From Nitzschia sp. pyKryTriq1 (taxonomy: Eukaryota > Bacillariophyta > Bacillariophyceae > Bacillariales > Bacillariaceae), in NCBI GenBank assembly GCA_956465555.1, contig OY101126.1, positions 1,158,501 through 1,222,500 of the forward strand: 64,000 bases of DNA, given 5' to 3'. The notes under the pieces are model-generated. The model saw only the letters and a list, made by a program, of their open reading frames with translations, ran no database searches and had not been told where the DNA came from. The position numbers and the translations under genes are program-made. Positions 15,367 to 57,150 of the stretch are shown piece after piece (position 1 is the stretch's first letter; each line of letters opens with the position of its first letter).

Positions 15367-18192
15367 CTACGAGTAGCCCCATTGAAGCGTCTCGTGAGCT
15401 TTGGGGGTCTCACGAGGAGCACGTTCTTCTTCCTTTTCCTCTTCTTGGATGTCTGGGAGCTCACCTATCGAAGCGCTTGACCTTCTGGAAGCCATGGAAA
15501 AACTCGAGCGATGATTTTCCATTCGTTGGTTTCGTCGGAAACTGGCGGAGAACTCACTAGATTTTTGGGACTCTTTATACTCGGCCATGGCCAAGTGAGC
15601 TTTTGCCACGATCTCTTGTACGGCACGAGAGGATGAAGAACCCACTTCGCGGAGGGAGTCTCTCAGCGAAGACCTATCGGACGAGAAGTCATCTTCCTGT
15701 GGTTGGCTAATCTCGGTGCCAGTGCTTGCTGCGATGAGCTTGGGAACCATGTAAATTCCCAGCGCCGTGAGGACATCCAAACTCAACAAGTAGCTTAACA
15801 CGGTAGAGACGGTGGCCGGATCTAGGGAGTCGTTTCCGCTTTTCACCATCTGATTCCCCACCTCAAAGACAAGGACACGCAAAATGAATAGCACAAAATG
15901 CGAATAGATCATGAGCCCCAAATTGGTTGTCTTGTTGAATTCCCGTTTCACTTTTCGAGATTGAAAGGCCAGAACAGTGGCCCAGAGAATGATGAGACCT
16001 TCCCACGACAATGCAATAACCACCCAGGCAATGGACTCGGAGGAACAGGAGACTGATCTCTGTACAATGTTAATGTTTTCATCCTCAATCAACCGCTTAC
16101 TCTCGGTGTACTGTGGTGGATCCAAAACTGTCCAAATGCTCAGAACGGATATCACTATTAGAAGAATTGGAACAATCGGAAGTGCGAGATCCCGAGGGCG
16201 GAGATATGCGCGTCGACGCCTTTCCTTGGCCAACATCATACTGTTGATCGCTGCAGCTTTCACAAGAAGAGGAACCAACTCGAGAGTGTACCCGATGGAT
16301 ATGAACCAGATTTGTGAGACGCAGATTTGATCCTTTGGCTCCAGTGCCTGCGTGACAGCACCAATAGATACCAAGAATAAGCCAAGAAGAATCAAGGCGT
16401 TCACACTGAACTGGGCATGGTAGAGAATGGCAACCTTCCTCCACCGGTACACGAAATAGAAGCAAACCACAACACAGAACGCGGAGAGGGCTCCTATTGC
16501 GATCGCCACGGCGAATGCCGCCCCTTGGTATCCAGTTTCTCCAACAATAACCCTTGGGTATCCACGGGGAATAAAGCTTGCAAGTTCCTCTCGGTGTTCC
16601 ACAACCCACTTGCAAACGGCATCGCGAGCGGCAAATCCTGTCCGGTCTCCATCGACCCACTCACGGAGCATGATATTCATAGCCAAGTGAGTCACCTTGA
16701 TATTCTTAATTGCATCGAAGCCAGGGCTCCGGTCGGCCTTTGGAATATCAAGATTCAGATCTCTCAACGAGGATGCTACTACCTTCTGAAGTGAATTGAC
16801 TTCGTTGTCGCAAGCACCATTCGGTCCGCCTTGCCTTGTCTCAAGATCTTCGGAGCAACGATCCTCAGGGGCAATCCGAGATGCACGACAGTGGGACGTT
16901 GGGTCCGGAAGGAGGACCTGCTGAAATTCGAAATCGGTTCCCCGAAATTCCTCGATGGTAGCATCTGGCGTCCACCACCAAAAGGCAACATGAGACTTGG
17001 TTGCATTTGCCGCCCTCCAGATCTGAATCATTTGCCCATAGGAGTATCCGCCATTGTGCCCATCGTTTCCCATTGATCGTAGCGCAATATCATTCCAGTA
17101 TGCCTGGGCGTCAACATTTGTGCTCCAAGCGCACGGGGCTCCGACAATGTGGCCCACACATGTGCTTGGGTTCAAGGTACAGTTATTCTCGGGTTTTGTT
17201 TGGAAGTAGCCTTTGAATATACCCGTTTGGAAGTATGTATCTTCTTCACCTACCACTGGTGCTCGCTCGGCAACGTCATCTGGTACCTGACATCTAGTCG
17301 GAGAAACGTCCCGACAATATGTCTCGAAGGTCGTTGGACTTTGAAAGGTTTCAGCCAGTAATTCTCGCCGCCCCGCGAGTCCATGATAGGTTATAAACTC
17401 GGGAAACCTCTCGGCCGTAAACGCTGGAATGTACCAAGATATTTTTCCAATTTGACCATCGTCGTAACTTTGGTCAATCTCACCAGCCAAGAGAGCCTGG
17501 CGCCATTTCTGCTCTTGTCCGATCCACACTTCCGGTAATACATGAACACAAGGTTCTTTCGTCAGCTCGCAGTGTCCTCCCAGCCGGTTCGCTGTTTCGA
17601 TTTCTTCAAAAGCATATGCTTGAGTTGACCAGCTCATCTCACCATCGGGATTATAAAAACTGGCTTGTGGAGTGTCTGGGCCCAATCCAACCCGAACGGG
17701 GACATGGAGGAATTCGCTGAGGAAAATCTGGATAATCCAAGAGTAGAATATAACTGACTCCCAATTTCCATTGTGTACTCGTATTTCGGTGTAATTGAGT
17801 GCGGAGTATTGACAATATTCACCGGAGGTATCGTCACTGTTACAGGCACGGGTGTAATTGTTGGAAGAGCCCTCTTCGCTGCTGTATCTAACGTGATTGG
17901 AAAGGCAGCCGGATAAGTAGGGATTGCTACATTTTAATCGGCTTCCCGAGTCAGACGTGAATTCGAGGCACTTAGATCCTGGCCGGCGTAATGTCTCGCA
18001 GTCACTGTCAGTGGCACACTCGTTAATGGATTGAGCTAGCACCCGAGCGGCTGGCCAGGAGACTGCCAGAAAACAAAGCAGGAGAGCTAAGGCCAGACGC
18101 CCCGCTGTCTTTCTTCGTTTCGCCTTCGGACACATGCACAAATTGCTTCTGGTTTTTCTTGGGATGTGGTCTACTCTTCCTTGGGTCTCCAT
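15367..18192 (-). CDS. Class C GPCR-like receptor with glycine-betaine-type binding ectodomain
   Basis: 941 residues from the ATG at 18192 (METQGRVDHIPRK). A hydrophobic segment (about 31-53, RLALALLLCFLAVSWPAARV) is a signal peptide or anchor. A Cys-rich patch follows (about 57-97, NECATDSDCE...). Residues about 130-540 resemble ABC-transporter substrate-binding proteins of the OpuAC/ProX type: IRVHNGNWESVIFYSWIIQI at the start, VHVLPEVWIGQEQKW, and an aromatic-rich end (HVAFWWWTPD) where such proteins place cation-pi cages for quaternary amines. From about 555 there are seven hydrophobic segments (to about 835) in the pattern of 7tm_3 (GABA-B/metabotropic type), with a basic loop KERRRRAYLRPRD after helix 3. 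The tail is Ser-rich and cytoplasmic. Ligand (betaine, proline, DMSP?) is inference. Single exon. Confidence 0.85.
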   Translation of the reverse strand: METQGRVDHIPRKTRSNLCMCPKAKRRKTAGRLALALLLCFLAVSWPAARVLAQSINECATDSDCETLRRPGSKCLEFTSDSGSRLKCSNPYLSGCLSNHVRYSSEEGSSNNYTRACNSDDTSGEYCQYSALNYTEIRVHNGNWESVIFYSWIIQIFLSEFLHVPVRVGLGPDTPQASFYNPDGEMSWSTQAYAFEEIETANRLGGHCELTKEPCVHVLPEVWIGQEQKWRQALLAGEIDQSYDDGQIGKISWYIPAFTAERFPEFITYHGLAGRRELLAETFQSPTTFETYCRDVSPTRCQVPDDVAERAPVVGEEDTYFQTGIFKGYFQTKPENNCTLNPSTCVGHIVGAPCAWSTNVDAQAYWNDIALRSMGNDGHNGGYSYGQMIQIWRAANATKSHVAFWWWTPDATIEEFRGTDFEFQQVLLPDPTSHCRASRIAPEDRCSEDLETRQGGPNGACDNEVNSLQKVVASSLRDLNLDIPKADRSPGFDAIKNIKVTHLAMNIMLREWVDGDRTGFAARDAVCKWVVEHREELASFIPRGYPRVIVGETGYQGAAFAVAIAIGALSAFCVVVCFYFVYRWRKVAILYHAQFSVNALILLGLFLVSIGAVTQALEPKDQICVSQIWFISIGYTLELVPLLVKAAAINSMMLAKERRRRAYLRPRDLALPIVPILLIVISVLSIWTVLDPPQYTESKRLIEDENINIVQRSVSCSSESIAWVVIALSWEGLIILWATVLAFQSRKVKREFNKTTNLGLMIYSHFVLFILRVLVFEVGNQMVKSGNDSLDPATVSTVLSYLLSLDVLTALGIYMVPKLIAASTGTEISQPQEDDFSSDRSSLRDSLREVGSSSSRAVQEIVAKAHLAMAEYKESQKSSEFSASFRRNQRMENHRSSFSMASRRSSASIGELPDIQEEEKEEERAPRETPKAHETLQWGYS

Positions 18193-33239: not shown

Positions 33240-35583
33240 TTAGAAGTCCTTGAAGAGCGCCTGTTCCTTTGAATTCAGTGCTCGGCCGGTTTCCTTCTCA
33301 CGCTCTTCCCTGCTAAAGTCTTCAAAGTGAGAAGCATCAAGGGGGTTCTTAATTGTTGGCACCCACGGAGCCTTGAGCTTGTAATTGTTCAGCTTGTCGA
33401 AATCCATGGAATTGAACCATGGATGCTCCTTGACATCCAAGTATCCTCGGCTTAGATTACCCAAACGAGACGACTGACGGCGTGTCAAGAGCTTCTTGAT
33501 CAAATCCCTCGCCTCCTCGTTGACTGTGTTTGGGCAGGAGTACTTGACCATAACAATGCGCTTGAACAAACTCACTTGGTCAGTACCATAGAAGTAGAAG
33601 GGAGAGCGCCCGACCAACATTTCGTAAATCAGAACACCGAACGACCAGTAGTCAACCGCCTTGTCGTGTCCCTTCGACATGATGATCTCGGGAGCCAAAT
33701 ACTCCGGGGTTCCGCATAGCGTATACGTCTTGTCCACGACAATCTTAGCAAATCCAAGATCCACCATGATGCAGTATCCTCTCTCGTCGATGAGGGCGTT
33801 TTCTGGTTTCATATCCCGATAGACAATATTGCGAGCGTGCAAGTGACCCAAGGCCTCCAAGATACAGGCCCCATAGAAGATCGACGAATCATTCGAGACT
33901 CCGTCACGCTTGTCGGTGTGGACGACATTGAAAAGCTCACCTCCTTGGATCAACGGAAGCAGGAGGTAGAGATTGTCGTCGTCTTGGAAACTGCATACAA
34001 GGGGAAGGATGAACGGATGTTCGATAGACGCCATGATCTGCTTCTCACGAATGACACCCTTGACCTGGTTGGCCTGAATGAGTTGGCGCTTGCTAATGGT
34101 TTTCAAGGCGTAGGGAGTCTTATCCTCCAAAGTAGAAACCAACCAAACCTTTCCAAATGCACCTGTAAAAATAAAATCCATCAGTCACGACATTTTGTTT
34201 TTTCCCATTAGACCACCAGCGAATACTTTTAAAAGTGCAAAACTTACCCATTCCAAGAATACGGTGTCTCTTGATATCCTTGAGTTTAATTTCGGTGTTG
34301 AGCGAGGACGACACAAATGGAATAGGCATACCCAGCCTCTTTAGATCACCAATAACATCTTCGATATCGTTTCGACTCAATACGTAGCAAGTTGTGTCTT
34401 CCTCACAAATACAAGTTTCATCACTCTTGTATTCCCCCGAAGCTTTGACTGCTTTGTCGCCGTAGTAGTCTCCACTGCCCAGGAAGAAAATGCTTCCCAA
34501 TGCACTGCTGATCATAAGTTTCCCGTCCTTCACAATATATAAATTCGGCTCCGCCACCTTTCCGGCCTCCATGAGCTTGTCACCTTTCTTGAATTTCTTC
34601 TCCGAGATCATGGCAACCAAATGCTCGTACTCGATACTTAGAAGCTCCGACTTGGCAAAAATGGGAACAGACTTGATGAAGCGCTTTTTGGATTCGAGTC
34701 CCAAGATACTATCCAAGGATCCAATGGTGGTTTCAAAGGTCTCACGATCCACAGCATATGCAACGGTGTCAGTCATGGCAGTGACGTTGGCGGCGCGGGG
34801 CTCTCCCGTCATCAGTGCACGCTCTCCGAACCAATCTCCAGACTTGAGAATTTGATCGGCATAGCTGGCATCGCCCAGTCCAATATCATGGACACGCACT
34901 TGACCATCGCCAATGATGTAGAAGATATCTCCAACATCTCCCTTCTTGACAACAACCTGGCCTGCAGAAAATGTCACACTCGTCAGAACATTGGCGAACT
35001 TGGCGATCAAACCACGATCCATATCTTTGAAAAGAGGGATCTTCGCCAGGGTGTCCACAATACCGCCTTCTTGCTCCTTTGCCGTGCGGGCCAGCAAGTG
35101 ACGGAAGGTTCCCTGATCGACTTTCCAAAGCTTGGTATCTTCGGCGGCAATGCAAGTTGCGGCGCGAGGAGAATCGTAGAGCAGGGCCAGTTCTCCAAAG
35201 GAGGCGCCCTTTCCGCACGATCCGACTTCATTTCCATCTGCCACAAAGTTGATGGTACCGTTTTCTACGATATAGAAAAAGTCACCGACATCTCCCTGGG
35301 TGATAATCGTTTCTCCTTTCTTGGTTTCCTGCTTTTGCATCGCCTTGATCAACATTGACTTTTGCTTGGAGCTCAAATCTCCGAAGATAAAGTTCGCCCC
35401 GAGGGCCCCATCGAGGAATTTCGCATCTTCCGACGTCTTTGGGTAATTGGGAGCCACAAAATCGCCTTCCATATCCAAAAATCGACCTTGGACGGCCTTG
35501 CGATTCTTTACGTGCATTTTAATCTGCTGTTCCCGATTGCTGATCTGGGTGGAATCTCCCTTTTCGGGATCTTGACCGGCCAT
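33240..35583 (-). CDS. Cyclic-nucleotide-dependent protein kinase (PKG-like), three CNB domains plus AGC kinase
   Basis: Exon 1 35583-34248, intron 34247-34163 (85 nt, GTAAGT...CAG), exon 2 34162-33240, together 752 residues; the junction builds the Gly-loop GMGAFGKV. CNB-A (about 65-165) has the canonical FGELALLYDSPRAAT and CNB-B (about 180-290) FGERALMTGEPRAAN, both with the Glu and Arg that bind cyclic phosphate. CNB-C (about 305-415) is degenerate: YGDKAVKASGEYKSD lacks the Arg. The kinase has ALK, YRDMKPEN, DLGFAK in place of DFG, and GTPEYLAPE, and ends with an AGC C-tail. NRKAVQ near residues 27-32 could be a pseudosubstrate. Domain order is that of PKG, with regulatory and catalytic parts on one chain; cGMP rather than cAMP preference cannot be read here. 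Confidence 0.95.
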
Positions 35584-37251
35584 TTTGTTGGTGGGCGTTT
35601 TTGACTTGGACTTGGATGTCTGTATCGAGAGAGCGCGAGGAGACGGATGTTAGTGTTGTGTGCTGTGGATGCTGCTGGCTATCTACTTCTGGATCGATAT
35701 ACAAGCGACGAGCTCGCGAACATGGAGATCCACAGGCGAAAGATTAATTGGATCCAACGACAAAAGCGACGACCCACCCATCCTTCACATCATTTTCACT
35801 GTTACTTACTCCTTTCGGTGTACTAGTAGTCGTAACGCTATTGTTGTTCGCAGATACGTTGCTCTCTGTGGATCCACAACCTCCCATTTCTTGCAAACAC
35901 AGCCAAACTAGATAGTTTTCTGTCTCCCAACTGAAGCAGTGGTGGTTGGTGTCGTTTTCAAGAGAGTGATCAAACGTCCAACGGCGGACTGCGAAGCATC
36001 AGATTTCGTGTGCAGCTTTTATTGTAGCGTAACCGGTACGTAGCGTCCCGGCACGTACACGTACTGGTATTAGCGTCGAATGAACGAAGGCAATCTTTTT
36101 TCAGCTTCACGCACGAATCGAGAACCCCGATTTGAACTTTCAAAAATGCTTGGTAAATAACGTGTCTTAGTATAAATAGTATTGTTGAAGCTAACATAAT
36201 TTGTACGACGTCGGGATAAATGGTAGAATAATACCATTAAAATGCGTAAATAGTCCGAAAAGATTCCTTCTCCTCGAAACGCGCGAGGGCCGCGCCTTTT
36301 TCCACCTCCTACCGGTCCCGGTACAGTGTATGCTGTACAAGTTCAGTACCTGGTGTACCGGTAACAGTATGTACTCGTACCGGTATCTCGCCCACCCGAT
36401 GTCAGCTCACATCTCTCGGCGACTCCTTCGTCATCGCCTCTGTTAGAGACGATCGCGCTCTGCGTTGGTGCGTAGCGATTATTTCTCTAGTCTAGACAGG
36501 CTTGATTGGTGGTAGGGTGGGTTTTTACTAGTCGTCGCGCGGCTCTTTGCAAAGAGCTAGAGCTGCGGGTGGGTCGTGGTGGGCGGGTTTAGCTTTTACT
36601 ATTACTACTTGGTTGCCACAAATTGATAGGTGGAGCGTTGAAGCTTCACCTTGAGCTTTTGATACCGAGAGCGTCTGATTTGTGAAGCCATACGAAGAAT
36701 TCTTCGTACGAAGAATTCTTCGTACAAAAAATTCTTCATACGAAAAATTCTTTGTAGGAAAAATTCTTCGTACGAAGAAATGGCGAAGCCTCTCAGCGCT
36801 CCGGACGATACTTTCCAAACAACCGGTACTGTATGGGGTTTTGGAGCGCCGATACGGAGAATTTTTTGTACGAAGAAATAGCAATAGCAATATCTAATTC
36901 AACGTGGTCTATCTAGCGCCACACAAGAGGCTACTGTAGGACACGAGACGGATCCACGGCTACAACCCTTGTCCCGTTGAATGCTATTTCTTTGTCGAAG
37001 AAATAATCTTTGGCCTGGTAGTCTAGTAGTAGAGCGGCAATAAGCGCTGTAAAACGCGCGATTTTTTTTGTTTAGAAAATTCCCCGGATGCTCCTGCTCC
37101 TCCTCGCGTCATCCTCGCCGAGAGGTGACAGACGGATGGGCAGGCGGGCACAATGCGTTTCTATTGTAAAAATTGTATCCATTATCTCCACTGGGAAGTC
37201 ATCACTACGAGTAGATAGATAGTAGCTATCATACTAAACAATTGTAAATCG
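35584..37251. other. Intergenic with palindromic 16-bp array
   Basis: About 1.67 kb with no supportable gene. It includes the kinase 5' region, GTAC words near 36030-36070 and 36310-36385, and a palindromic tandem array at 36691-36780 (separate entry). Confidence 0.5.
36691..36780. repeat. Tandem array of palindromic TACGAAGAATTCTTCG units
   Basis: Five 16-bp units and a partial sixth. The first two are perfect and palindromic (TACGAAGAATTCTTCGTA); the next three have one to four changes. A related TACGAAGAAAT occurs near 36869. The array can fold into nested hairpins. Confidence 0.9.
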
Positions 37252-46181: not shown

Positions 46182-47582
46182 CTCTAGACTATTACGTACA
46201 GTAGTACGAGTATGTAACAACATGGAGCTAGCTATAACATTGCCGCCATTACCGCACCAGAAGAATGTTCAAAATACCATGCGGCATAAGACAATAATAC
46301 TAGTCTACTTGTAGGTGAATGTGAATGTGAATGTGGCCATTTTTTTTTTTGAGACAACCGCCTTTCGCGAGAGTTGCGTAGCCCCGCGTAATAGCAGTCT
46401 AAATCTGCCACCAGATAGAAATAAGAAGAACTGGAACTGCATGCATGGAAAACCTTCATATCCAAATTTCCACCAAACAACGCGATTGTTGTTATATTGC
46501 TCGGCGGCGCGAGAAAAGCTGATTGTTGTTCAAGCCAACAACATGATGCAAGCGTATCCAGGAATCTCGGGACCACCAGGTACAAGTTCTGGTACCTGGT
46601 TCTCATACCGCCGGTAGATCTACAAATACGGCGGGACGGAAGCTTGCGAAGGAGGTGTTGAAGATGTTTTTTCTCTCCTCAAGAATTATCATACAGTACA
46701 AGAAGAACTTGTTACTGTACGGTGATGGCTACAAGTACCGCTGTAGTACTCGTACTGTTGATTTTTTGCCACATGCATGTTCAAGAAGGAGGAGGAGGCG
46801 ATGTTTTATCGACTTATGGGCTGGATTTCTTCTTAAATGGCCATCTATCTCACTACTCCAACATCTGCGTCATCATCGGGGCATTATGTGAAGGACACAT
46901 CTGTCGTCTTCTGGTCGTTGCACTCTTGAACGACACTACCGGTAAAGCTACATGCTAAACTGTGGTACTCGGCGTACTCTCGGACTACGAGCTGAAATTC
47001 CGGACCTACCAGAACAACCAAAAACTTTTGGATCTTCGTCGTCGTCGTCGAACTACCTGCTTCACTGTTCCTAACTAATTCTGTGGATTTCTACAGGTTG
47101 AAGAAGGCGCGTTTCTCAATTATCGCATGCACCAGATGCTACGGAACGACTAGTAGGTAGGGCCTCAATTGTTTAAAAAAAAACGAGTAGACTACTCGTA
47201 CCGGCAATATGATGAGAGAATGAGGCGATGTTTTGCGACATATGGACTGGATTTCTTTAATAAGCCCATCTCACTAAGTTCAATGATCAATGACCGAATT
47301 GGATGGCCCTCCTCCCCCTGCCTACTGTACCTACTTGTACAACAAGCACAACATCATGTGCACAGTACTTATACTGAAGGCCCTCCTAAATTCTTCTTCC
47401 ACCACCGCACATGCCACGCAGCCTCGACGATTTCCCTTGCTTCCAAATAACAGCTGGTTTGGTCTTGGCCATCACTACACGCACTTCAGCACACCTGTGA
47501 GAACTCACAATCCCAAAACCGTACCGTTCATCATTGCAAACACCCCGGAGCTACTCTGCATAGTAGAAAGAGGGATACAACC
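46182..47582. other. Intergenic with a diverged duplication
   Basis: 1.4 kb between ARPC4 and the histidine kinase. Segments at about 46792-46865 and 47218-47290 resemble each other (both include AGGCGATGTTTT, then TATGG, CTGGATTTCTT). A short ATG frame at 46725-46958 has a signal-like start and STYGLDFF, also readable in the second copy. No complete gene. Confidence 0.5.
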
Positions 47583-49604
47583 ATGATGGAAGACAAAATG
47601 ATGAGATACGATGACCTGATTATAACGGTTGCTTACTTCTCCATTCCGCTTCAAATTGTGGTGGCTCTGTTGCAATACCCAAGGCTGAGAATGATGCCTT
47701 GGCACATCGTGGTTTTGACTATTTTATTCGCATTGTTTATCTTCCTGTGTGGTACCGGTCACTTGTTCCGGTGTATGGGAATGAACTACGGGACAGTCTT
47801 CGACTCTCTGAACATTGCGACGGCGGCTGTCAGTTTGATTACCGCCCTGTATCTTCTCCCGCTGATGCCCTACTTGTTCGCCTCCTTGGATAAAACCTTG
47901 GAGTCCGAGAAGGAGTCCAAGCGAAAGGTTCTCACCTTCATGAGTTTCTTGTGCCACGAGATCCGAAACCCTCTTTTCGCCATCACGTCAACCATCACTT
48001 TCATGGGCGACGACAACACCCTTTCGGAGGAACAGAAAGACTCCCTGGACTGCATCGAGCAGAGCGCTAACCTAATGCTCAGACTTGTGAACGATGTCCT
48101 GGACATTTCCAAGGTGGAGTCTGGGAAGCTTCGACTGGAGCAAACGCCCTTTGAACTTACCAAAATTCTCCAAGGGGCCGCATCCAGCATGAAGACTGAC
48201 ATCTATCAAAAGCACGGGAATGCCGTCTCCTTCGAAGTGGAAATGGGCCCGCGAGTACCACGGGAGGCGATCGGGGATTCGGTACGCCTTCTTCAGATAG
48301 CTTACAACCTTCTCAGCAATAGTGCCAAGTTCACAGACCAAGGCTTTGTCAAGTTCTCAGTGGATATTGTGCCGATTTGCAAGGCGCTGAAGCGCAACTG
48401 GGTTCAAGAGGGCCCAATCAAGGAGCTGATGAGAAAGAAGTGCAGTGATGAGATGGACGCATCCGCTGAAACAGAATCTTGCTCTGGTTTCTCATCGAGG
48501 AGGGAAGACTTCTCAATTGCTTTGCTGCAAGCAGAAGAAGGTCGAGCCGACGACGAGCCATGTGGTTACAACACTGTTGTTTTGAAGATGGAGGTCCAGG
48601 ACAGCGGCGTGGGCATCAGCCCCGAACGTCAAAAGCACATCTTCCAGCCCTATTCTCAAGCCAAGCTTTCGGACTACCGGAAGCATGGTGGTACGGGGCT
48701 AGGACTGAGCATCGTCGCCAGACTCGTCGAACTCATGGGTGGAAGCATCCATATGGAGTCTGAGCTGCACCACGGTTCAACTTTCACTGCCTACGTGCCT
48801 CTGAAAGTCCATGCAAGCTTCACGGTAGATGGAGCTTGTGGAGCAGCACCACTTGATACCAACACATCCAAGCCGAAAGAGTTTTCGGCCCTCATAGGCA
48901 AGGCCCTGTCAGTCGCTATCACTGGCACTGAAGGGAGTACCGGCAATGACAATGACAATGAGAGCGAATCGCTAACGGGCACTTGCGAAAGGAATTTCCC
49001 ACGAGTCGTCAACCAGAGCATGAAATGGGCGGGGCCACTGTCAACTTCGACGAAGAATAGCTCTCCCCCCAAGTTGAGCGTTCCCAGTGCGCCAGCAAGA
49101 ACTCCTGCTTCTCGAACGCCTCCGCCTCCTGGGAAACCTGCTAAAAGGGACGCAAAAGCGTCTCCTACCCAGACCAAGTTCGAATTTGATCACAATGAGA
49201 ACATTGTTCTGGTTGTCGACGACAATGCTATCAACCGAAAGCTGCTTGGTCGTATGCTCAAGTACTTCAATCTTCAATGCGTCTTTGCCGAGAACGGCAA
49301 AGAAGCTGTCGATTTCGTTGAGACGAGTCGCAACTTTACTGGGGATTCTACTTCTCCCAACATTGGTTTGATTCTGATGGACTGGAGTATGCCTGTGATG
49401 GATGGATACGAGGCCACCATGGCTATCCGATCCATGAAGCTCGATGTCCCAATCGTGGCTCTCACGGCGTGTGCACTGGAAGAAGGTCTTCAAGAGCTCA
49501 CCAAGGCAGGATCCAATGAGATCAAAACCAAGCCCATTCTGAGAGACGAACTATTCACAATATGTAACCGCTATCTCGTCGAATGGAAATCAACACATTC
49601 GTAG
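47583..49604 (+). CDS. Ethylene-receptor-like hybrid histidine kinase
   Basis: 673 residues, ATG at 47583. Three membrane helices (about 12-34, 40-62, 75-99) match the ethylene-binding domain of ETR1: D11 and Y18 in DDLIITVAYFSIPL, and Cys 56 and His 60 in FLCGTGHLF, equivalent to the copper ligands Cys 65 and His 69. No GAF domain is present; the H-box (FMSFLCHEIRNP, His 125) follows almost directly. The ATPase core has the N box LLQIAYNLLSNSAKFT, G1 QDSGVGIS and G2 GGTGLGLS. A Ser/Pro-rich linker leads to a receiver domain (IVLVVDDNAINR, phospho-Asp 600 in LILMDWSMPVMDG, IVALTA, KTKP). Similar domains in cyanobacteria sense ethylene or light; ligand is inferred. Confidence 0.9.
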   Translation: MMEDKMMRYDDLIITVAYFSIPLQIVVALLQYPRLRMMPWHIVVLTILFALFIFLCGTGHLFRCMGMNYGTVFDSLNIATAAVSLITALYLLPLMPYLFASLDKTLESEKESKRKVLTFMSFLCHEIRNPLFAITSTITFMGDDNTLSEEQKDSLDCIEQSANLMLRLVNDVLDISKVESGKLRLEQTPFELTKILQGAASSMKTDIYQKHGNAVSFEVEMGPRVPREAIGDSVRLLQIAYNLLSNSAKFTDQGFVKFSVDIVPICKALKRNWVQEGPIKELMRKKCSDEMDASAETESCSGFSSRREDFSIALLQAEEGRADDEPCGYNTVVLKMEVQDSGVGISPERQKHIFQPYSQAKLSDYRKHGGTGLGLSIVARLVELMGGSIHMESELHHGSTFTAYVPLKVHASFTVDGACGAAPLDTNTSKPKEFSALIGKALSVAITGTEGSTGNDNDNESESLTGTCERNFPRVVNQSMKWAGPLSTSTKNSSPPKLSVPSAPARTPASRTPPPPGKPAKRDAKASPTQTKFEFDHNENIVLVVDDNAINRKLLGRMLKYFNLQCVFAENGKEAVDFVETSRNFTGDSTSPNIGLILMDWSMPVMDGYEATMAIRSMKLDVPIVALTACALEEGLQELTKAGSNEIKTKPILRDELFTICNRYLVEWKSTHS

Positions 49605-53530: not shown

Positions 53531-56500
53531 TTACTCTTCCTTGTGTTCCGCCTTCTTTTTCTGGTAATCTCCAATACTAATGAGACCTCCCACGAATTCG
53601 TCTTCCATCAGGCTGCCTGTCAAACTCTCCAGAGTCATGGACGGATCAATTCGATCCAAATCGTCTACTCCCACCAAAGTGCCATCCTCTTCCACTATCT
53701 TGTTGGCTAAAGCCGCAATGCCTTTGGGCAAGCTTTTCAAACGTTTGGCTCGAATGCGAGTAGCAAAAGCTTGGGAAGACGCATGGTCATGTTGTTGGGC
53801 AGATTCCATTACGTTGCGCTGAAAGAGCTTGGTAGCGCGTTGGTTTAAACGAGCAAGGCCTTCCAAGTTAAAGACCATGGCTTCCAATTCCGCCAAAGAG
53901 TGGTAGAGAGGAGCATACAAAGGATTGATTTCCATTCCTTCCTCCAAGACTTCGCGAGCGTCATTGAATTGGCCTTTCTGGACCAAATATTCACCCAGTC
54001 GCCGATACAGCTCGGCGTCATTCGGGGCGCATTCAATCCCCCGCCGTAGATACAGACTGACCAACCCACCATTGCCCTGAGCCTCTTCGATTTGAGCTGC
54101 AATCAGCCATCCTGATCCATTGTTCTTGTTGCGAGTGAGTGCTTCCGTTATTAACTTTTTAGCATCCATATAGTTGCCCTCTCTAAGTTCCAACAGGGCC
54201 CATCCTTGATAGAGAGGAACATGATTCGGAGCTTTCTGGAGACCAGCCGCGTACAAGACGCGAGCGTTATGAATGTTGTCCTTTTTGATTTCCAACGAAG
54301 CATATCCGTGCCAGAGGGCACCATAGGTGGGAGCATTACGGATGCCCCCTTGAAATAATGTGGATGCTGTTTCAAAGTTGCCAGCTTTGGTTTCCATGAC
54401 TCCCCAGGCTTGCCACCCTTGGGCGTGTTTTCTGTCACTCATGACAGATCGTTCAAACAATCCTCGCGCGGCATCCTCTTTACCCAATTTCATCTCACTC
54501 AAAGCAGCACCAAGCAATAGTCGCGAAGAATTCCCACACCGTTGGATTCCATCCTGAAAGACTTCCAGAGCAATCGCGGGACGATTGCTATTCAGTTCCA
54601 GCATACCCAAAGTGTGTGATAGAAATTTGGCGCGCTCTCGATACGTAGAGTCAGACCCCATTTCTTTAGCACGCACCTGCTCTAACCCCTCTTCCAGTAT
54701 GGAGCGGGCCGTATCCACATTGCCCAGGGATAATTCAAATTTTCCATAGCCATGATACAGAGACGCCGTATCGGAACAATTTGCCAGGACTCCCCTCTGA
54801 AAGACAGCGCGGGCAGCGGCAATATTCCCGCTCTGGAATTCAGCATTACCGTAAGCATTGTAGGCGGGTCCGTGGCGAGGATCCAGCAACAGTGCCTCTT
54901 CGAACAATCCTCGGACATGCGCAAAATCAACCGGGCGTTGATGCCGAAATTCTAGCATGGCATAGGCCACCAAGGTTGCCGCGCAAGGTTCCAATCGAAG
55001 ACTTTCACTGTACAATCGCCGGGCAGCCGTATAGTTGCCTACTCGTTCTTCCACCTTGCCTGCCGCTTGAAAGAGCTGTTGCGGAAGAGAAAAATACGAC
55101 ACGATACAACACAACACAACAAAAGAAATGAGAATTGATCAAGCGCAGTGGTAATTGCAACTGTGCTACGTTTTCCTACGTACCGCGTGATCGAGAGGAT
55201 ACATTTGCATGCCTCGCTGGAGAACTTGACGAGCATTTCGAAACCGTTTCGCTTTGACTTCAATCTGGGCCAATGCATTGAACACACGACCATCGGTGGG
55301 GTCCGAGGGAATTTGATCATTTGTCTCGATTTCCTTGCAAGCGTCTGCCAACCGCTTAGCCGTTACTCGGTTGCCTTGGGGCGAGTCTTTCTGCATACGA
55401 CCTTCCAAACGCGCCAGGGCGACATTGGCCAGACTGGATCCTGGACTGAGTTTCAGGGCTAAATTTAACAGCTTCTTGGCTCGTTCCAAATCCTGAAAGT
55501 ATCGTTCTTCCAGCCAGGCCGATGCCAGATAGACTTCAATTCGATCCTTTTCTTTGGTTAACTTGTCCACGTGCCGTGCATACAATTCCCTAGCCTCTTT
55601 TGGCTTGTTCTGGCTAATCAAGAGTTCCCCCAAGGAGCACACCAGTGCCGCGGTCGAATGATTGGTCTCCAAAGCGGCACTGAATAGTTCGGTAGCCCGC
55701 GAGACTCCACCATGTCGCTTGTGATACAATCCAAACGCATGACAAACGTAGGGATTCTGTGGATCCAGTGCCAGAGCTTCCTCAAACAATTCTCGGGCTC
55801 TCTCATAATGACCTCTGGAATCCTCGTAGACAGCCCAGGCCTGCCATAAATGGACCGACTCTGGACAGTTAGTAGTACCCAATGCAAACGCTAGCTGCGC
55901 TCGCGTCTGTTGGTCCGCGTCGAGTGATGATGTTGTTGTTGCGGCTTCTGTCGTTGCTGCTGCCGCTGATGATGATGATGATGTGGTTGTTGCGGGCGCC
56001 AAATTCTTGTTTGTGGACTCTCTTCGAGCCTCGAGTCGGGCGAGGGCTAGATGACTGTGAGCATCCTTGGGTGCCTTTTCTAATATTTGAGAATACACAG
56101 CCGATGCGTCACTCCACAATCCTTGTCGTTCCATTTTCTTGGCATCTTGGAACATGGATTTGATGCCGCCATGGCTATTCTTTTTGTAGTAGCGTTGCTG
56201 TTTTCGTCGAGTATTATCACTGCTGCTTGTTTTGGAGCCAGAAATCGACGAGCTATCGCCTTGACGTCGACGATGATGTTCGTCCGAGGGATTGCTCTTG
56301 CCCTTGCCCTTGCCGTTTTCGTTTTTGTTGTCGGAGGCGGATGGAATGGTCGATGATGTTTGGGGAGAAGTAGAAACAAACAGGGGAGTTGTGGCTGAAG
56401 AACGCTGTTTGCGTTGCGGAAAGAACTGGCGAACTGATGGTAACGTGGACGATGGAGTGGGCGGCGAAATGGAATTCCGAGGCCGAGACATTAAGTTCCA

Positions 56501-56602
56501 GCCACTGGCTCCGTCATACGCCACGAAAAGAAGGACCGACATGAAAGCAACAGTCGCATCTCGTTTCCGCCGCCGCTCTCGAAAGTATAATCGCCCTGTC
56601 AT
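53531..56602 (-). CDS. Plastid HAT/TPR-repeat protein, HCF107/MBB1-like (two exons)
   Basis: Exon 1 56602-55184, intron 55183-55076 (108 nt, GTACGT...CAG), exon 2 55075-53531; 987 residues. The ATG at 56602 gives MTGRLYFRERRRKR and a hydrophobic stretch (VAFMSVLLFVAYDGASGW), a signal peptide with ASAF variant. After a disordered Ser/Thr region about 16-18 helical repeats run from residue 150 to near 880. Many are half-a-TPR type with W-x-A-W/Y and R-x-L-[FY] pattern: LWQAWAVYEDSRGHYERARE, FQAAGKVEERVGNYTAARRL, LWHGYASLEIKKDNIHNARV. This is the layout of HCF107 and MBB1, which bind and stabilise plastid psbH/psbB mRNA ends. The C-terminus is a charged tail. RNA targets here are inferred. Confidence 0.9.
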
Positions 56603-57150
56603 GATTGATGACGATTTTCTGATGATGAAGAGGATTGATTCAGCCACGCGAAGGATGACAATGACTTTGTTCTTCGTCGTCCATGCAAGGTACAAGTAGC
56701 CTTTCTAAAAGCAAGCAACTCTAAAGTAACCAGCAAACATTCCTTCCACGCATCGCTATCGTCTCTACCTTTACCCTCGTGATAGCGAAAACAAAAACGT
56801 CACACAACAAAGCCCACATCACTAACTGCACTCTTCTGCACCACTCTCCCAACCACACGCACAAACAACAAGAATTATTGGGTGGCGCCCGTTCTGCTTG
56901 CGCTCTGGAGGAGCGGCATCCTCGCTCACATCCTTCAGCCACTACTACAGTAATTGAGTACCAGGAATCAATCTGGCCAATCAAAATGGAGGAGGGACGA
57001 ACCACCACAACTCCCGGAACATGGACAGACACCAACATCATTGTGGACTGACGACTCTTTCGACTGGAAATCGAAGAGGCGATGAGAGCGGATGGGCATG
57101 AGGAGTAAAGTACAGCGGGACAAGGATCGCTAAAAACAGTTCTTATATAT

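Follow-up and report, generated by a model that had tools for sequence, protein, structure and literature searches.

A predicted class C seven-transmembrane receptor with a quaternary-amine-type binding head in the diatom Nitzschia sp. pyKryTriq1

The window analyzed here is a 64,000-nucleotide stretch of contig OY101126.1 from Nitzschia sp. pyKryTriq1 (assembly GCA_956465555.1, positions 1,158,501 to 1,222,500), in which we followed up one gene encoding a putative receptor. It is a minus-strand open reading frame (ORF; nt. 15367..18192, 941 a.a. plus stop) that runs uninterrupted from an ATG at 18192 to a stop at 15367-15369, exactly the interval of the initial annotation. P0002 (922 a.a., from a public assembly) is 99% identical to the window protein, its length being consistent with translation from Met20; P0003, from elsewhere, is 74% identical. 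The N-terminal region (residues 1–53, nt. 18034..18192, all coordinates in this gene being on the minus strand) is signal-peptide-like, as initially annotated, with a hydrophobic core at 33–51 followed by VLA-QS in the hydropathy scan and Met20 as an alternative start. It is followed by a cysteine-rich module (residues 59–128, 7 Cys, nt. 17809..18018; predicted local distance difference test score (pLDDT) of 80–95 for the block), a predicted substrate-binding-protein-like ectodomain of the quaternary-amine (OpuAC-ProX-DmpX) type (residues 136–544, nt. 16561..17787), a class C seven-transmembrane (7TM) domain (7tm_3, residues 559–818, nt. 15739..16518), and a cytoplasmic tail with no Pfam domain by Pfam scan (residues 819–941, nt. 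15370..15738). The motifs from which the ectodomain was first recognized, NGNWES (141–146), VWIGQEQKW (222–230), and FWWWTPD (404–410), are all present in the protein.

The only domain returned by the Pfam scan of the window protein was 7tm_3 (PF00003), matching residues 559–818 (E 5.8e-33; 115 bits, the cut-off being 33.5) across nearly the entire profile (positions 7–251 of 251). Hydropathy analysis placed seven membrane segments after the large head, centered at ~569, 604, 634–646, 678, 733, 767, and 807, so that the seven 7tm_3-like segments proposed initially were recovered by both approaches; a weaker hydropathy peak lies within the ectodomain at 146–171. Among solved structures, the closest chains are those of GABA-B subunits (E 4.2e-12, and E 6.8e-30 with a 24-row profile). 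For residue-level comparison, we used a 111-row alignment comprising the window protein, the then-found proteins of >780 a.a., and eight ORFs from the same genome (some partial), in which row counts represent kin sequences rather than independent events. All 111 rows have both cysteines of the extracellular-loop pair (C624 and C716), and the PK motif of the seventh transmembrane segment (TM7) is nearly as constant (P817 in 107/111 rows, K818 in 109/111). Both are named as features of class C receptors (PMC3727952). K645 in TM3 is also retained. By sequence, the window protein is assigned to the class C 7TM proteins.

The pairing of this 7TM domain with its ectodomain recurs throughout a family. 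Searching with the ectodomain recovered 85 proteins at E ≤ 0.001, and since 76 of these carry a precomputed PF00003 match, the pairing is more than chance. Within the same genome, all 14 ectodomain matches lie in nine loci that each have a 7tm_3 match 13–34 bases away; merging neighbors among 40 matches gives 36 7tm_3 places in total. Of the nine relatives lacking a precomputed 7tm_3 match, all except P0065 were aligned; seven of these eight extend into one or two of the initial membrane segments, and P0067 ends ahead of them. These relatives look like truncated gene models rather than soluble forms. Named relatives, among the matches listed (120 of 147 in one search), come from Nitzschia, Cylindrotheca, Seminavis, Pseudo-nitzschia (which we take the label Psemu1 to denote), and Corethron. 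As Corethron is a centric diatom, the family extends beyond pennates. The initial annotation looked to other stramenopiles for the same domain order, and it is indeed found in diatoms, the group covered by our searches.

Modeling and profile comparison both point to the quaternary-amine class for the ectodomain. In a Foldseek search with an ectodomain model built with 61 of the 85 relatives (alignment A1), the top fold matches were quaternary-amine, sulfonium, and amine-oxide binding proteins, the outcome expected from the comparison with OpuAC/ProX that had been suggested initially. When the diatom heads (105 rows) were aligned with a bacterial profile (A5, 35 rows) using hhalign, the probability was 97.1, the E-value 5.8e-11, and the score 85.8 over 285 columns, compared to scores of at most 30.4 for 60 column-shuffled profiles and 20.1 for a reversed profile. 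With the 62-row A1 profile the E-value was 2.8e-9, and against just five bacterial rows it was 8.9e-8. The bacterial relatives were taken from named records (ProX of E. coli and plasmid genes); A5 is mostly DmpX-like with TmoX- and ProX-like rows, and leans to DmpX, as 30 of its 35 rows were picked among 120 of 1543 relatives of L054. In the PDB sequence search, L054 proved DmpX-like (E 9.5e-64 to 7yle) and L050 TmoX-like (E 6.1e-80 to 4xz6). A 49-residue match between part of the ectodomain and the plasmid records by tblastn (E 8) was judged to be noise. Matches to OpuAC itself (PF04069) appear among the relatives, in 5/24 at E ≤ 0.1, with relative P0005 (26.8 bits) above the gathering score of 21.2 and the paralogue L025 (19.9 bits) just below it. 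Because the window protein itself does not reach this gathering score, we refer to its ectodomain as a diverged OpuAC relative and not as a Pfam member. The predicted model gives the ectodomain the two-lobed type II fold of the OpuAC/quaternary-amine class, in keeping with the initial annotation, which had set this class against an LIVBP-type head; neither of the adverse outcomes named there for the ectodomain, an LIVBP-type fold or no binding-protein fold, was observed.

This comparison extends to the predicted ligand pocket. The pocket of the bacterial protein RnDmpX comprises Trp35, Thr64, Trp84, Glu113, Trp152, Ala153, Tyr200, and Trp202 (PMC10030565), and we found these letters at those numbers in the 7yle sequence. 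Mapping by way of L054 aligned W144 with Trp35 (nt. 17761..17763; W in 96/96 rows with a residue there), W223 with Trp84 (nt. 17524..17526; 105/106 rows), and W356 with Trp152 (nt. 17125..17127; 103/109 rows). The fourth cage residue, Trp202, aligns with W407 in the run W405-W406-W407 (nt. 16972..16980), in which W405 occupies the Tyr200 position, and S357 aligns with Ala153. Among the 95 complete rows (16/111 rows were left out of this count owing to gaps), 58 have W at all four cage positions and 87 have an aromatic residue at each. Judging from the alignment, the aromatic cage (W144, W223, W356, W407) is kept in the window protein, and its ligand is likely an onium solute. Dimethylsulfoniopropionate (DMSP) itself is not specially favored by the pocket residues. 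Replacement of RnDmpX Tyr200 by Ala or Phe abolishes DMSP binding, and TmoX, which we found to carry F at this position, does not bind DMSP (PMC10030565). The Trp at the Tyr200 position in the window protein therefore weakens the case for DMSP, so of the sensing of betaine, choline, or DMSP suggested initially, which we retain as an inference, the DMSP part is reduced by W405.

Some members of the family carry additional domains after the 7TM. Two paralogues in the same genome, L023 (C1, 2251-6957, plus strand, 1569 a.a.) and L024 (C1, 1923-6581, minus strand, 1553 a.a.), encode in one frame the head, the 7TM domain, an inositol-polyphosphate-phosphatase-type domain (E 1.4e-45 and 5.1e-48, respectively), and a C2 domain. 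A script search found GDLNFR, PSYTDRIL, and SDHKP, which we take to be the hallmark motifs of INPP5, in place in both phosphatase domains. By precomputed Pfam matches, 10/85 relatives have a tail of this phosphatase family and 2/85, P0082 (Nitzschia sp. Nitz4) and P0084 (Seminavis robusta), continue from the 7TM into a nucleotide cyclase and a phosphodiesterase (PDE). On a tree of 55 of the 111 rows, made by a quick method, the 12 rows with a phosphatase tail fall together in one starred group and the two with a cyclase tail in a second one, and two changes are enough to account for all effector tails; shuffled tail labels were equally clustered in 27 and 31 of 500 trials, a weak test of clustering given the few labelled rows. 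We considered equating P0084 with the SIP+ pheromone guanylyl cyclase/phosphodiesterase of Seminavis and dropped this, as two predicted membrane segments are described there (PMC4726125, PMC8027222).

From these findings, we consider it probable that the window protein is a diatom class C (GABA-B-like) receptor with a Venus-flytrap-like type II head of the quaternary-amine class, which holds an onium ligand in a Trp cage and signals via its 7TM domain; the fusion of such a head to a class C 7TM, as initially interpreted, is supported. The domain order and the paralogues are read directly from the genes, the class of the 7TM from its sequence, the fold class of the head from a model, and the cage from an alignment, whereas the ligand, the closure, the dimer, and the coupling are inferred. 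A small zwitterionic molecule carrying a methylated onium group, such as glycine betaine, choline, trimethylamine N-oxide (TMAO), or possibly DMSP, would enter the cleft between the lobes, where the cage of W144, W223, W356, and W407 would grip the onium head. The lobes would then close on the ligand, and closure would be passed to the directly attached 7TM domain. In class C receptors, closure of the flytrap drives the 7TM domain, and by analogy head closure on an onium solute would most likely do so here. The 7TM domain would act, probably within a dimer, on the G-alpha of the genome, for which we noted a match at C3:961023-962186 (E 2.9e-94, two stops read through). Paralogues with the same head would use effectors of their own: the inositol-polyphosphate-phosphatase-type domain plus C2 or, in two diatoms other than this one, the cyclase plus phosphodiesterase. 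BCCT-family transporter matches occur at two loci in the genome, and for this reason the alga may handle onium solutes.

A number of observations weigh against this reading. OpuAC gave no Pfam match at E ≤ 1 in the window protein and none in the genome, so that the OpuAC/ProX-like region proposed initially stands in the relatives, the profile-profile alignment, and the predicted fold, and not as a domain match in the protein. Nor did the ectodomain, with the 10-row profile A2, find any PDB sequence at E ≤ 10; given this lack of a direct match, its link to solved structures needs profile-profile or fold comparison. Below rank 22 in the Foldseek results, maltose-binding-protein chains intermix (lower probability, root mean square deviation near 20), and a full-length model built without an alignment had a pLDDT of 37.4 and was not used. 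Within the pocket, position 407 is W in just 72/110 rows (aromatic in 104/110), Glu113, a water-mediated contact in RnDmpX, is replaced by I251, and Tyr200 by W405 (Tyr in 8/110 rows), while Thr64 corresponds to T174 in the A1 alignment and D173 in the 105-row alignment. Finally, in TM6 the window protein carries a Lys (K754, nt. 15931..15933) at a site that is E or D in 106/111 rows, K being confined to the window protein and its relatives P0002 and P0003. Where TM6 ends on the cytoplasmic side, an acidic residue is crucial for GABA-B activation (PMC3727952). By alignment, K754 departs from this site, which is why we have filed the window protein as a class C protein and not as a GABA-B receptor.

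Alternative explanations were weighed against the same evidence. The head could have the quaternary-amine-class fold and bind a different ligand, for instance ergothioneine, a polyamine, an amino-acid derivative, or a cue related to mating or to bacteria. We regard this as possible though unlikely, given that all four tryptophans are kept in the window protein and that onium binding is common to the nearest fold matches. Somewhat less credible, and nevertheless a live rival owing to the replacement of a residue crucial for GABA-B activation (PMC3727952), is that the window protein does not signal itself or serves as a partner subunit, in the manner of one half of GABA-B, and that its paralogues signal. 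The restriction of K754 to three of the 111 rows is in line with such a role, as is the E or D found in the eight other sequences aligned from the same genome; however, a single substitution does not show lost coupling, and the protein retains both the PK motif and the TM3 residue K645. It seems very improbable that the ectodomain is a ligandless structural or adhesive remnant. Its size would be in line with one, as at 492 residues with 18 cysteines it exceeds the matched DmpX, TmoX, and ProX (290–309 residues) by almost 200 residues, but W144, W223, and W356 rank with the best-conserved positions of the family. We reject a Venus flytrap of the LIVBP/ANF type found on animal class C receptors, the usual architecture of the class and one present on L038, L045, and L046 in the same genome, as the window protein has no PF01094 match at E ≤ 1 and its top fold matches belong to the quaternary-amine class.

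The other 7tm_3 proteins of the genome display an assortment of heads. A Pfam scan of 10 ORFs, from 18 stretches at 7tm_3 places outside the family, identified ANF_receptor (LIVBP-type, in the three proteins named above), Peripla_BP_4 with or without Peripla_BP_1, SBP_bac_1/8, and a 5′-nucleotidase C-terminal domain; a PDC-type match below the cut-off lies in one upstream ORF (10 ORFs scanned). L042 (C13, 964-3969, minus strand) combines a class C 7TM with tandem Peripla_BP_4 (best stretch 117–392) and Peripla_BP_1 (465–619), L039 (C2, 452-5455, plus strand) has the 5′-nucleotidase C-terminal domain ahead of its 7TM, and at L044 (C2, 2571-3848, minus strand) the ORF immediately upstream of the 7tm_3 frame carries a match to that domain. 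Two pairs of 7tm_3 places (C3:3190300 and C1:4326968; C2:1434812 and C7:2492310) have identical scores and frame lengths, and are perhaps duplicated contig parts. Elsewhere in the window lie a histidine kinase of the hybrid type that has both an ethylene-receptor-like (ETR1_N) domain and a receiver domain (nt. 47451-49604, plus strand), an ORF with three cyclic-nucleotide-binding stretches (nt. 34120-35649, minus strand), and two adjoining ORFs with TPR/HAT-like repeats, possibly one gene (nt. 53531-56704, minus strand).

Class C receptors with binding-protein heads have been described before. In 2012, a Pfam search named six proteins of the fungus Allomyces macrogynus with OpuAC on 7tm_3 (PMC3251606), the same pair of a PF04069 head and a class C 7TM as in the diatom family; the accessible text on these fungal proteins describes no fold, cage, or effector tails. 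The class C G protein-coupled receptors (GPCRs) of anaerobic gut fungi likewise have a type II substrate-binding-protein (SBP) domain on the 7TM and lack a match to the nine-cysteine domain; their heads are invariably similar to sugar-uptake proteins, whereas the diatom head is of the quaternary-amine type (PMC5168858). The class C GPCRs that Port et al. reported from diatoms in 2013 share a 7TM near GABA-B, binding-protein heads in some, the PK motif, and the paired cysteines, but the heads in the available text are PBP1/class C-like or ABC-sugar-like, with none of the quaternary-amine type (PMC3727952). The bacterial DmpX, TmoX, ProX, and OpuAC proteins (PF04069) resemble the diatom head in fold, profile homology, and the four-Trp cage of RnDmpX. 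In contrast to these proteins, which serve an ABC transporter, the diatom head is eukaryotic, cysteine-rich, longer, and fused to a 7TM, and it does not keep Glu113 and Tyr200 of RnDmpX. GPCR-bigrams include a 7TM-phosphatase chain like L023 and L024 and a 7TM-cyclase-PDE chain like P0082 and P0084; this likeness rests on the tails, and the window protein, with no enzyme domain after its 7TM by Pfam scan, is not a GPCR-bigram (PMC5784254). In the accessible text, INPP bigrams come only from oomycetes and Nannochloropsis, and adenylyl cyclase or PDE bigrams only from oomycetes (PMC5784254). Our search of the PMC literature, with subscription papers outside its reach, found no description of a quaternary-amine head on diatom receptors in the text available to it; it gave nothing for a diatom GPCR-inositol polyphosphate fusion and, for diatom GPCRs with DMSP, only a review on coral-reef fungi. 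The new part is the quaternary-amine head, its cage, and the effector-tailed sisters in diatoms, fusions of class C receptors with binding heads being already known.

More broadly, though doubtful enough to be offered tentatively, diatoms may possess an old and expanded receptor family at the cell surface that recognizes methylated onium osmolytes (betaine, TMAO, DMSP, or choline), with a head of the marine-bacterial type recruited separately from the LIVBP of animals and with some members directly switching a phosphatase or a cyclase/phosphodiesterase on the same chain, without a G protein. In the sea, algae and bacteria exchange betaine, TMAO, and DMSP. Bacterial uptake proteins for all three are known (PMC10030565), and a diatom could sense marine solutes of this type if the head still binds them. 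Were the broader proposal true, osmolyte leaked by neighbors, damaged cells, or bacteria would be sensed without a G protein in some members. The family consists of definite genes with a testable predicted pocket, and the presence in one genome of class C 7TM domains under several kinds of binding head and before effector tails bears on the origin of class C receptors.
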